Assembly (NCBI RefSeq): GCF_036924715.1
Contig: NZ_JAZHSB010000001.1
Location: 1,355,001-1,419,000 of the forward strand
From: Bradyrhizobium sp. AZCC 1721
Lineage (GTDB): Bacteria > Pseudomonadota > Alphaproteobacteria > Rhizobiales > Xanthobacteraceae
DNA: 64,000 nt
Direction of reading: 5' to 3'
Below are positions 2,155 through 6,368 of this stretch, one piece after another. Below the pieces are notes generated by a model, which saw nothing but the letters and a program-made list of their open reading frames with translations, had not been told where the DNA came from and ran no database searches. The position numbers and the translations under genes are program-made. Within the stretch, counting starts at the first letter, position 1. Each line of letters starts with the position of its first letter.

Positions 2155-5118
2155 ATGGCGAAGAAACCTGACACCCCCAAAAAGCCCGGCAAATCCCCCG
2201 AATCGAAGGCGCATCGGCCAGACGTGCAGCCGATCGGGCCGGCACTGGCCGAGCTGCTCAATCCCGCGCTCAACCGCGGCGATGCCGGCATGGGCTCGGG
2301 CACCGGCCTGCAGCCGCCGCCGGACAATTCCTGGGACCGCCGCGCCGGCGGCGAGGCCGCCGCGCATCGCGCGCGAGCCTCGACGCGCGGAACCAGCGCG
2401 GACGTCGGCAAACGCGATGCATCCCCACAAGGCCTCGAAGAATCCCCCCAAGCCAACTACGGCACCGCGGCCACCATCCCGACCCTCGACCCCGAGCTCG
2501 CGCGCCAGCTCGGCCTGCCGACCGCGGAAGACGACGAGGAAGCCCTCGCTCGCCCGCCGCGCAACAAGATGGAAGCGCTCGGCGTCAAAGCCACCGCCGA
2601 TGCGCTGGAAAGCCTGATCCGCGATGGCCGTCCCGAATTTCGCGGCGACAACGGCCAGCTCAAGGTCTGGACGCCGCACCGGCCGCCGCGCCCGGAAAAA
2701 TCCGAAGGCGGTGTGCGCTTCGAGATCAAATCCGAATACCAGCCGAAGGGCGACCAGCCGACCGCGATCGCCGAACTGGTCGAAGGCATCAACCGCAACG
2801 ACCGCACCCAGGTGCTGCTTGGCGTCACCGGCTCCGGAAAAACCTACACCATGGCCAAGGTGATCGAGGCGACGCAGCGCCCGGCCCTGATTCTCGCGCC
2901 GAACAAGACGCTGGCCGCGCAGCTCTATGGCGAGTTCAAGAATTTTTTTCCCGACAACGCGGTCGAGTACTTCGTCTCCTACTACGACTACTACCAGCCC
3001 GAGGCTTACGTCCCGCGCACCGACACCTACATCGAAAAGGATTCGTCCATCAACGAGCAGATCGACCGTATGCGCCATTCGGCGACGCGCGCGCTGCTCG
3101 AGCGCGACGACGTCATCATCGTGGCGTCCGTGTCGTGCATCTACGGTATCGGCTCGGTCGAGACCTACACCGCGATGACCTTTGCGCTGAAGAAGGGCGA
3201 GCGCATCGACCAGCGGCAATTGATCGCCGACCTCGTCGCGCTGCAGTACAAGCGCACGCAGGCCGATTTCACCCGCGGCACGTTCCGCGTCCGCGGCGAC
3301 GTCATCGACATCTTCCCGGCGCACTATGAGGACCGCGCCTGGCGCGTGAACCTGTTCGGCGATACCGTGGAAAATATCGAGGAGTTCGATCCGCTCACCG
3401 GCCACAAGCAGGACGATCTCGAATTCATCAAGATCTACGCCAACTCGCACTATGTGACGCCGCGGCCGACGCTGGTGCAGGCGATCAAGTCGATCAAGTC
3501 CGAGCTGAAGCTGCGGCTCGACGAGCTCAACAACCAGGGGCGCCTCTTGGAAGCGCAGCGGCTGGAGCAACGCACCACCTTCGACCTCGAAATGATGGAA
3601 GCGACCGGAAGCTGCGCCGGCATCGAGAACTATTCGCGCTACCTCACCGGGCGCCGCCCCGGCGAGCCGCCGCCGACGCTGTTCGAATACGTGCCCGACA
3701 ATGCACTGGTTTTCGCCGACGAAAGCCACGTCACCGTGCCGCAGATCGGCGGCATGTTCCGCGGCGATTTCCGCCGCAAGGCGACGCTCGCCGAATACGG
3801 TTTTAGGCTGCCCTCCTGCATGGACAACCGCCCGCTGCGGTTCGAGGAATGGGACATGATGCGCCCGCAATCGGTCGCGGTGTCGGCGACGCCCGGCGGC
3901 TGGGAGCTGAACGAAAGCGGCGGCGTGTTCGTCGAGCAGGTGATCCGTCCCACAGGCTTGATCGATCCGCCGGTCGACATTCGTCCGGCGCGCACGCAGG
4001 TCGACGATCTCGTCGGCGAAGTGCGCGCGACCGCTGCCGCGGGTTATCGCTCGCTGATCACGGTACTCACGAAGCGCATGGCGGAAGACCTCACCGAGTA
4101 CCTGCACGAGCAGGGCATTCGCGTGCGCTACATGCACTCTGATATCGACACCATCGAGCGCATCGAGATCATCCGGGACTTGCGCCTCGGCGCGTTCGAC
4201 GCGCTGGTCGGCATCAATTTGTTGCGCGAGGGCCTCGACATTCCCGAATGCGCACTGGTCGCGATCCTCGACGCCGACAAGGAAGGTTTTCTGCGCAGCG
4301 AGACCTCGCTGATCCAGACCATCGGCCGCGCCGCGCGCAACGTCGACGGCAAGGTGATCCTCTACGCCGACCAGATGACCGGCTCGATGGAGCGCGCCAT
4401 CGCCGAAACCAACCGCCGCCGCGAAAAGCAGGTCGAATACAACACGGCTAACGGCATCACGCCGGAGAGCGTGAAGAAATCGATCGGCGACATCCTCAAC
4501 TCCGTCTACGAGCGCGATCACGTGCTGGTCGAGATCGGCGACGGCGGCATGGCCGACGACGTCATCTCGATCGGCCACAATTTCGAGGCCGTGCTGAACG
4601 ACCTCGAAACCCGCATGCGCGAAGCCGCCGCCGATCTGAACTTCGAGGAAGCCGCCAGACTCCGCGACGAAGTCAAACGCCTGCGCGCGACGGAAATGGC
4701 CGTGGTCGACGACCCCACCGCAAAACAGCGCGCCGTGCAGGGCAAAGCCGGCGCCTATGCCGGAACGAAGAAGTACGGCGAGGCCGCGAACCTGCCGACA
4801 TCAGCGATGAAGAAGCGCAGCGCCTCTTCACCCTCCGCTGGAGGGGGAGGGTCGACCGCTGCAGGCGGTCGGGGCGGGGTGAGCCGCAGCGGCGGTTCTT
4901 CCACCTCGAAAGTCCACAAACCCCATCTCGACGAAATGCACGGCCCGGAATCCTTGCCCTACCGCCCCAGCGGCGCCAAACCGCGCAAGCTCGAGATCGG
5001 CAGCGGCAGCAAGATCTTCCAGCCCACGGATTCGCGGCAGTCAGGCCCGGAGTTCGGGCCAGCCCCGCGATCGAGCGGCGGCGCACCGGGGCACCGGGGC
5101 GGGTGGAAGAAGAGGTAG
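2155..5118 (+). CDS. uvrB: UvrB, excinuclease ABC subunit B
   Basis: UvrB is the damage-verifying helicase-like subunit of nucleotide excision repair. It receives DNA from UvrA and positions UvrC for the dual incisions. Walker A (GVTGSGKT) is at residues 223-230. The damage-probing beta-hairpin ([12 protein letters not shown]) starts near 276. The helicase core continues to about 790, with the late motif QTIGRAARN, and a UVR domain that contacts UvrC lies near 810-845. At 987 residues it is much longer than the usual 670 or so: about 190 residues of low-complexity N-terminal extension precede the core, and about 140 residues follow the UVR motif. Part of the C-terminal tail (about residues 891-909) is encoded by a dispersed palindromic repeat. 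The ATG at 2155 is the most upstream good start. Confidence 0.97.
4827..4881. repeat. Palindromic repeat element inside the uvrB reading frame
   Basis: The block reads CACCCTCC, a short loop, GGAGGGGGAGGG, then a perfect GACCGC-TGCAG-GCGGTC stem (4854-4870), then GGGGCGGGGTGA. Its two-stem layout and flanking motifs match the intergenic copy at 1355-1412. It is translated as a Gly/Ser/Ala-rich segment of the UvrB tail and keeps the reading frame open. Confidence 0.7.
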
Positions 5119-5161
5119 GGTTTGGCCACGCATGAATGTGATGAGCGGCGGCGGGTCAGCC

Positions 5162-5240
5162 GTCATTGCGAGCGTAGCGAAGCAATCCAGCTTCTTTCCT
5201 TGACGCTGGATTGCTTCGTCGCTGCGCTCCTCGCAATGAC
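5162..5240. repeat. GTCATTGCGAG palindromic repeat, copy 1
   Basis: Long imperfect hairpin with outer arms GTCATTGCGAG and CTCGCAATGAC and inner arms GAAGCAATCCAG and CTGGATTGCTTC. Copies of the same family occur at 23547-23607, 41339-41420, 53587-53667 and 60447-60529, always between genes. A half copy is at 22465-22476. It behaves like a REP/BIME-type element of this genus. Confidence 0.85.
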
Positions 5241-5313
5241 GCAATGGTCGTCGGTGCAGTTAGTTGTATTGTGATCCTCTGGCAATTCAAAATAATTGCG
5301 ATACGCTGAGTTC

Positions 5314-6081
5314 ATGAAACTCGGCTTTGAAGAGTCCCAATTGTCCTACACAAGCGGCTCGCAAAGCGCCCGCGCCTGGACAGAAGCTTGGGTGAAGGCT
5401 TGGGCCTACTGCCCGCACTGCGGCAACGCCAAGATTTCGTCCTTTCCCAACAACTCCCCTCTCGCCGATTTCTTTTGCCAATCCTGCAAAGAGGAATTCG
5501 AACTCAAAAGTCAGAAAGGCAGATTCGGAACGCGAGTCGTCGATGGCGCGTTCAAGACCAAGTGCGAACGCCTTGCCGCCAGCAACAATCCGAATCTGCT
5601 TCTGATGAACTACGACCTCAAATCGCTTGCGGTCGTGAACCTGTTCATCGTGCCGAAGCACTTCTTCGTCCGGGAGATCATTGAGGAGCGAAAGCCGCTG
5701 GCACCCACTGCGCGACGGGCCGGCTGGATCGGCTCCAACATCCTGCTTAGTCGAATTCCAGACTCCGGCAAGATACATATCATCCAGAACAGCGTTGTTC
5801 GCGCGAAAGAACTCGTCCTCGCCGATTGGCAGAAGACACTCTTCCTCAGAAACGAATCCCCGGAAACGCGCGGCTGGTTGCTGGATGTGATGAAGTGCGT
5901 GGAGTCGCTTGGCAAGCGGGACTTCGCCCTTGACGAGGTCTATGCTTTCGAACGGCACCTCGGAGATCTCTATCCCGGCAACCAGAACGTCAGGCCAAAG
6001 ATACGGCAGCAGCTTCAATATTTGCGGGATCGCGGGTTTATTGAATTCGTTTCGCGCGGGAATTATCGTTTGCGACACTAG
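5314..6081 (+). CDS. dpnI-like: DpnI-type restriction endonuclease (cuts N6-methyladenine GATC)
   Basis: This 255-residue protein matches pneumococcal DpnI (254 aa, from memory) along its whole length. Four cysteines (C33, C36, C55, C58) form the zinc site. The PD-(D/E)xK residues are D52, E63 and K65 in LADFF...EEFELKS. The block KPLAPTARRAGWIG is nearly identical to DpnI. The C-terminal winged-helix part (about 180-255, with KIRQQLQYLRDRGFIEF) is the second methyl-sensing DNA-binding domain. DpnI cleaves GATC only when the adenine is methylated, so it needs no partner methylase. The ATG at 5314 matches the DpnI start; a TTG 18 bases upstream is less likely. Upstream DNA is AT-rich and the gene has lower GC than its neighbours, which suggests transfer. 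No methylase lies nearby. All visible catalytic and zinc residues are present. Confidence 0.93.
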   Translation: MKLGFEESQLSYTSGSQSARAWTEAWVKAWAYCPHCGNAKISSFPNNSPLADFFCQSCKEEFELKSQKGRFGTRVVDGAFKTKCERLAASNNPNLLLMNYDLKSLAVVNLFIVPKHFFVREIIEERKPLAPTARRAGWIGSNILLSRIPDSGKIHIIQNSVVRAKELVLADWQKTLFLRNESPETRGWLLDVMKCVESLGKRDFALDEVYAFERHLGDLYPGNQNVRPKIRQQLQYLRDRGFIEFVSRGNYRLRH

Positions 6082-6092
6082 GGAGCCCGGCG

Positions 6093-6368
6093 ATGGCATG
6101 GTTTCTGAATCGCTACAAGTGCGACCGCTGCAGGCGCCGATGGGCCGATGAATGGTCCTGCATGTGCGACGACACATGCCCGCATTGTGGCGCGCGGGAT
6201 ATGACACCGTATGAAAGCGAGGAACTGACCACGCTTATTGAGCAAGAGGGCAAGGTGTTCGTCGTCCTGTGGTCGCCAGAAACGGCGGAACACGATCCGG
6301 ACTATCGCGAACTCGGTCGCTTTCCGACCCGAGAGAAGGCGTTGGAGTTTCTGGCGGCGGACCAATGA
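6093..6368 (+). CDS. Small zinc-ribbon protein of unknown function
   Basis: The 91-residue protein starts 11 bases after the DpnI-type gene on the same strand, so the two are probably co-transcribed. It carries an N-terminal pair CDRC, then a CMC, then CPHC (about residues 10-36), giving five cysteines for a rubredoxin-like or zinc-ribbon fold. The C-terminal half is acidic and ends in FPTREKALEFLAADQ, a helix often seen in small accessory proteins. I recall homologues in Bradyrhizobium that are not next to dpnI, so the link to restriction is only positional. It is not recognisably similar to pneumococcal DpnD. Function unknown. Confidence 0.7.
   Translation: MAWFLNRYKCDRCRRRWADEWSCMCDDTCPHCGARDMTPYESEELTTLIEQEGKVFVVLWSPETAEHDPDYRELGRFPTREKALEFLAADQ

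Follow-up and report, generated by a model that had tools for sequence, protein, structure and literature searches.

A putative DpnI-type methyl-directed restriction enzyme and its small cysteine-rich partner at a fixed uvrB-linked locus of Bradyrhizobium

The host genome consists of a single 7.15-Mb contig, of which positions 1355001–1419000 were analysed; this whole stretch of 64,000 nucleotides is referred to as the window. The gene uvrB occupies positions 2155–5118 on the forward strand of the window and is the constant upstream neighbour of dpnI in all 39 carriers of the genus. It is followed on the same strand by the dpnI homologue (5314–6081), which is open from its ATG and encodes a protein of 255 aa, and by zr91 (6093–6368), the conserved partner of dpnI, which encodes a cysteine-rich protein of 91 aa and is a probable zinc-ribbon gene. 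The zr91 gene starts 11 nt after the dpnI stop codon, which is overlapped by the RBS-like sequence GGGAG, and the two genes are probably co-transcribed. An AT-rich leader of 58 bases with a GC content of 39.7% lies directly upstream of dpnI (5256–5313, forward strand). The weak sigma-70-like site TTGTGA-16-AATAAT at 5269–5296 provides no evidence for a promoter, since 0.6 such sites are expected in the shuffled region and one was found. Between uvrB and dpnI lie nested inverted repeats (5161–5241) with arms at 5178–5194/5202–5218 (94% identity) and 5161–5172/5230–5241 (100%), which look like a dispersed palindromic element.

The identification of dpnI is based on profile matches, a match to the DpnI of the PDB, a residue alignment and a structure model. 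In the original prediction the gene was claimed to encode a complete DpnI-type enzyme, and this is borne out by matches over its full length. The protein matches the Pfam families DpnI (3.4e-68) and DpnI_C (1.4e-29), both above their cut-offs, and the PADLOC model mREase_II at 8e-97. A phmmer comparison with the PDB DpnI (4esj, 4kyw) yields 1.1e-74 over residues 10–252 with a single one-residue gap. On sequence comparison, the resemblance to DpnI is far beyond chance. The protein is predicted to comprise an N-terminal PD-(D/E)xK nuclease domain with a Cys4 zinc site (approximately residues 1–182 in DpnI numbering) and a C-terminal winged-helix methyl-reader domain, the boundary lying at 182/183 (PMC4117772).

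The DpnI residue numbering was transferred to the window protein through the phmmer alignment with the PDB DpnI. The PD-(D/E)xK residues D52, E63 and K65, the zinc cysteines C33, C36, C55 and C58 and the winged-helix end had all been named earlier, and they are confirmed by the alignment and by the DpnI_C match. The catalytic residues correspond to what we take to be D53, E64 and K66 in DpnI. The catalytic and zinc positions are unchanged in every covering row of the alignment of 46 open relatives, two rows of which (G053 and L061, a contig-edge copy from a Rhizobium MAG) are short of part of the N-terminal region. The window protein also has the methyl pocket L129, R135 and W138 with G140, and the base contacts S16, Q17, N47 and R126 (S17, Q18, N48 and R126 in DpnI), the roles of which are known from work on DpnI (PMC4117772). 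R126, L129, R135, W138 and G140 are kept in 46 of the 46 rows. Structure prediction and alignment with DpnI had been proposed as a check, and the AlphaFold2 model (pLDDT 87.9) superimposes on 4esj_A with TM scores of 0.85 (query) and 0.88 (target), an rmsd of 2.2 and 42% identity. When the model was used in a structure search, three DpnI chains alone passed an E-value of 0.001, the next chain scoring 6e-3.

The closest named copy, from B. murdochi WSM 1741, is 98% identical to the window protein. Compared with the window copy, dpnI has a dN/dS of 0.03–0.12 across 11 loci, several of which are saturated with dS above 1, and 0.03 against B. murdochi. All parts predicted to read and cut Gm6ATC are in place and under purifying selection. 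The product of dpnI is, as far as residues and fold allow it to be judged, a complete DpnI-type enzyme and a further member of the known DpnI family. The R.DpnI of Streptococcus pneumoniae (4esj, 4kyw) shares with it the two domains, the PD-(D/E)xK and zinc residues, the fold, the methyl pocket positions L129/R135/W138 and the winged-helix positions K229/R231, at 41–46% identity. The pneumococcal cassette (dpnC–dpnD) differs in its surroundings, since the partner gene in the window is zr91, without a DpnD-type Pfam match, and the neighbour is uvrB. Winged-helix fusion type IV endonucleases also use a winged-helix m6A reader, but they cut outside their site and have other architectures (PMC11037411). 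The main text of PMC11037411 contains no mention of Bradyrhizobium, rhizobi- or Alphaproteobacteria. In a literature search, neither a DpnI enzyme of Bradyrhizobium nor a zinc-ribbon partner appears in the titles and abstract beginnings among the matches listed (for example the best 15 of 31,792); subscription papers and REBASE lay outside this search, and we make no claim that such an enzyme is unreported.

Of 265 genomes of the genus, 42 have a PF06044 match. G040, G061 and G175, which have partial or divergent PF06044 matches and no uvrB match in the approximately 12 kb around them, were left out, giving 39 carriers. In all 39, dpnI is preceded by uvrB and followed by zr91, with the three genes on one strand. 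The distance from the end of uvrB to the start of dpnI is 41–3274 nt in 38 carriers, that is, within 3.3 kb; in G053 the dpnI start is lost and the extrapolated start falls inside uvrB. The zr91 gene starts 7–12 nt past the dpnI stop in 37 of the 39, 61 nt past it in G233, where dpnI is truncated, and 155 nt in G042. A clean full-length dpnI is present in 35 carriers and a broken one in G010, G053, G203 and G233. At the level of the class sample, DpnI is found in five of 357 genomes, namely the genome of the window and four with weak or partial matches. The zr91 gene also adjoins dpnI in Tardiphaga, a Rhizobium MAG and Mesorhizobium; in the last, the zinc half is matched and the contig ends just beyond. 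No uvrB match was obtained across 6 kb upstream of the Tardiphaga and Mesorhizobium loci, so the pairing of zr91 with dpnI persists without a nearby uvrB and is not just the result of shared linkage to uvrB. Neither uvrB nor zr91 was matched at the dpnI loci of Akkermansia, Marinicaulis and Firestonebacteria. In an alphaproteobacterial MAG (L059, DpnI 53% identical), uvrB lies 2.6 kb upstream of dpnI and zr91 is not matched; this reflects either a shared old linkage or chance.

The least explained part of the locus is zr91, which went unmentioned in the original prediction. Seventeen columns are invariant in 24 sequences, including C10, C13, C23, C25, C29, C32, W3, W17 and W21, and the dN/dS is 0.02–0.14 for the 10 loci for which it could be computed, so that zr91 too evolves under purifying selection. 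Matches of at least 100 bits are found in 42 of the 265 genus genomes, comprising the 39 carriers and G124, G166 and G230, where zr91 is a relic behind uvrB; in the class sample, zr91 is found in one of 357 genomes, the window's own. The AlphaFold2 model (pLDDT 90.9) has a cysteine-rich beta part and a C-terminal part of three strands plus a helix. The window zr91 matches nothing above cut-off in Pfam or NCBIfam and nothing in PADLOC at 0.01, and its sole PHROG match is weak (E 0.2). For some members there are matches to generic zinc-ribbon models, of which a TFIIS-type one scores best (6e-5), and the best PDB profile match is the archaeal RNA polymerase subunit Rpo12 (E 0.0055). The fold matches lie mostly in the zinc part (best Foldseek E 0.25; best Z 4.3 for human Shiftless, followed by MCM zinc parts), and they are too weak for the function to be read from them. 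DpnD-PcfM, which we take to be the Pfam family of the dpnD-type second gene, is not one of the 25 families listed when zr91 and 23 relatives were compared with Pfam (E up to 1) and is not matched by the C-terminal half of zr91 (E up to 5). Relatives of the N-terminal half occur on four Methylomonas plasmids and, weakly, elsewhere in the genus. A 76-aa gene behind the Firestonebacteria dpnI has a similar layout and was considered as a counterpart of zr91, but it was rejected with an hhalign probability of 0.1% and no Pfam match. In the Rhizobium MAG locus (L061:1962–2237), a second zr91-like cysteine-rich ORF of 92 aa lies about 1 kb past the dpnI–zr91 pair.

An antidote role of zr91 is unlikely. 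Two genomes, G093 and G066, carry a full-length dpnI with a broken zr91, which indicates that zr91 is not needed to tolerate dpnI. We take zr91 as an accessory or passenger gene. It is possible, though rather doubtful, that dpnI and zr91 constitute a two-gene methyl-directed restriction module of Bradyrhizobium and some other Rhizobiales in which zr91 tunes, delivers or restrains the nuclease. Its product might bind DpnI or the cut ends, or might link DpnI to damage handled by UvrB. An IMG/VR viral contig encodes a full-length zr91 relative (L176:3001–3249, 42% identity) with no DpnI within its 6.2 kb; if such a module exists, this relative could be a phage-side decoy or antagonist. As a small, conserved and uncharacterised gene, zr91 is open to deletion testing.

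A nuclease that cuts Gm6ATC has to be compatible with the methylation of its host. Profile searches of the host genome gave no match to PF02086 (D12/Dam), PF05869 (phage-Dam), PF02384 (HsdM) or TIGR00571 (dam), and the absence of methylases applies to these families. One PF01555 methylase of 377 aa was found, which appears CcrM-like on reading its sequence, together with one PF07669 (Eco57I-family) piece below cut-off (22.8 bits versus 25.3). CcrM is conserved in most Alphaproteobacteria (PMC3973325), and the published motif table of the related B. diazoefficiens (PMC4840208) comprises GANTC and four other motifs, with no GATC. With no match to a Dam-type family and a single CcrM-like methylase, a partnerless Gm6ATC nuclease is plausibly self-compatible, so the earlier suggestion that the enzyme needs no protective partner is plausible. 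The accompanying statement that Alphaproteobacteria usually lack Dam agrees with the class sample, in which dam is above cut-off in 23 of 357 genomes. GATC is not avoided in the window, where 569 sites were observed and 562 expected under a Markov model based on trinucleotides, and no avoidance was anticipated either; scaled from this count, about 63,600 sites are present genome-wide. Within the genus, dam (TIGR00571) is above cut-off in seven of the 265 genomes and in none of the 42 DpnI-positive ones. Since only about 1.1 overlaps are expected by chance, this is merely consistent with exclusion of dam and dpnI and is not significant; in the class sample, DpnI (five of 357 genomes) is too rare for such a test. 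In two dpnI carriers, G092 and G093, D12-type methylases that score under the dam cut-off are also present (L103:1462–2286 and L104:1465–2319). Should these be specific for GATC, they would contradict self-compatibility in those genomes.

We propose that the dpnI product is a type IIM enzyme that would cut GATC when the adenines are methylated, with both the nuclease and the winged-helix domain reading Gm6ATC. Confidence in this predicted specificity is raised by the gonococcal Drg, which cut dam+ but not dam− plasmid DNA (PMC4269198). In a host with a CcrM-like enzyme and no detected Dam, the many GATC sites of its own genome would be unmethylated and safe, and double-stranded DNA from a Dam-positive cell, either phage or plasmid, would be cut. 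An entering and expressed Dam gene would turn the GATC sites of the host chromosome into targets, and for this reason elements that bear Dam are also expected to be kept out by the locus. DpnI favours doubly methylated sites and cuts hemimethylated sites less well (PMC4117772). We infer that DNA delivered by conjugation enters as a single strand and is then hemimethylated. The main expected targets would therefore be double-stranded phage DNA and electroporated plasmid DNA from Dam-positive cells. The original prediction that DNA of Dam-positive donors could be destroyed fits double-stranded entry, but conjugation less well. The dpnI and zr91 genes would form a two-gene unit at the fixed site behind uvrB, and it is very probable that this unit is a defence locus of the genus whose DpnI orthologue is active and methyl-directed and which is not newly arrived. 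The broken dpnI in four of the 39 carriers and the absence of the locus from the nearest relative by uvrB also weigh against this reading. If active, the enzyme would explain why some Bradyrhizobium may refuse DNA from dam+ E. coli, the predicted remedy being dam− donors. With CcrM, no detected Dam and a fixed but variable defence site, the locus also offers a natural setting in which to test the exclusion of Dam-bearing phages and elements.

Drg of Neisseria, the dam-replacing gene product, belongs to the same family; a gonococcal record contains an unannotated DpnI homologue, presumably drg, with 39.8% identity across 97% of the query. Like the window locus, drg has a Dam-negative host, a fixed chromosomal site and a GC content below that of the genome, but it sits at the leuS/dam locus, whereas the window dpnI lies behind uvrB with zr91 (PMC4269198). 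The same paper connects drg with viability, biofilm and expression changes, proposing that it may act on transcription. That the window DpnI is likewise now chiefly a methyl-sensing regulator would agree with the constant place of the locus. It is nevertheless improbable: the nuclease residues are kept in every covering row, many genomes lack dpnI or carry a broken copy, which would not be expected of a needed regulator, and the host appears to be without an enzyme that writes Gm6ATC.

The lower GC content of the gene and the AT-rich upstream region were described correctly in the original prediction: dpnI has 55.2% GC, the window 63.7% and the leader far less. Their attribution to acquisition by the host is not supported. 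The dpnI GC averages 55.5% (48.3–61.2) over 43 loci, being low in all of them, and that of uvrB 66.1% (64.1–72.5) over 41 loci. Since the low GC is common to the carriers and the uvrB–zr91 site is constant in 39 of 39, recent acquisition is unsupported. A recent transfer from a distant donor could be read from the difference between 55% and 64% GC and from G162, the nearest relative by uvrB, whose uvrB core is 100% identical and is followed by no match to dpnI or zr91; taken alone, this absence would also fit a recent gain. The scattered presence of dpnI on the uvrB tree and the window catalytic domain, which does not group with those of B. retamae and LMTR 3, its relatives by uvrB, point in the same direction. 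This origin is nonetheless very unlikely, as the site and partner are the same in every genus carrier, the dpnI GC is similarly low across the carriers measured, and none of 72,556 plasmid and 50,697 phage records gave a tblastn match of at least 60% identity. At this site, exchange among members of the genus is likely, and a foreign donor is unnecessary.

Remnants were found behind uvrB in six of 25 fetched DpnI-less loci, which were partly picked for zr91 matches. G118 retains zr91 residues 40–90 at +50, G230 residues 30–90 at +11, and G124 the last 22 DpnI residues with zr91 after them, at +3.2 kb; in G041, G166 and G063 the zr91 pieces are shorter or farther away. In G115, the 12.2 kb examined contain a zr91 piece and no uvrB. 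Across 63 loci placed on a uvrB tree, dpnI switches between presence and absence 18 times, and starred branches force at least 13 of these changes. Shuffled labels give a mean of 20.2 changes, with 107 of 500 shuffles as low as the observed count, so the presence of dpnI shows no clustering beyond theirs. Near-full-length dpnI was labelled intact in this tree (37 rows), including L046, which has a stop, and G233, in which the match ends at residue 197; the DpnI-less rows are non-random, consisting mostly of the loci closest to the window in uvrB and of those with a zr91 match. The uvrB and domain trees were built quickly and without bootstrap, and because uvrB adjoins the locus, it does not serve as an independent marker of the species. 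The counts of presence changes do not separate gain from loss, but the remnants show that some of the changes are losses.

The alleles are mosaic. In comparison with B. retamae and Bradyrhizobium sp. LMTR 3, the window dpnI is about 77% identical at the DNA level in the catalytic part and 93–96% in the winged-helix part. The breakpoint lies at codon 169–176, near the domain boundary 182/183, with likelihood ratios of 61.7 and 32.5 versus null maxima of 23.4 and 15.2 in 300 shuffles; against B. murdochi there is no such breakpoint (3.6 versus a null maximum of 16.4). The winged-helix tree unites the window, B. murdochi, B. retamae and LMTR 3 (SH-aLRT 98.7), and the catalytic-domain tree rejects this clade (p-AU 2e-7). 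The clade was picked after the sliding identities were seen, and it agrees with a starred uvrB clade that also holds the DpnI-less G162. The breakpoint and the conflicting domain trees indicate that DpnI domains were exchanged between lineages while the specificity residues remained fixed. Plain homologous recombination at the shared site suffices to account for this mosaicism. The locus is old and fast-turning in the genus through loss and allele replacement and, probably, exchange between its members, and it is not newly arrived from a distant donor. That it is decaying, the window copy being intact by chance and no longer expressed or active, is hardly credible despite the broken copies in G010, G053, G203 and G233, the stops in L046 and L051 (L051 probably being the same genome as G203; the other 46 of 48 DpnI rows read open) and the remnants elsewhere, because the window copy is open, has all the checked residues and evolves under the low dN/dS found against B. 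murdochi.

Carriage of dpnI on plasmids or phages was considered and rejected, as tblastn matches occur on six of the 72,556 plasmid records and one of the 50,697 phage records, only two of them covering at least 80%. These two are 2.17-Mb gonococcal records filed as plasmids (NZ_CP119142.1 and NZ_CP119140.1), and both PLSDB entries are chromosome-sized. Five loci on viral contigs (L171–L175), one of them at a contig edge, match DpnI in the winged-helix part alone. Four Lactiplantibacillus plasmids likewise match the winged-helix part alone, under a feature named sigma factor. The isolated winged-helix matches on the five viral contigs and four plasmids are possibly m6A-reader domains in other settings.
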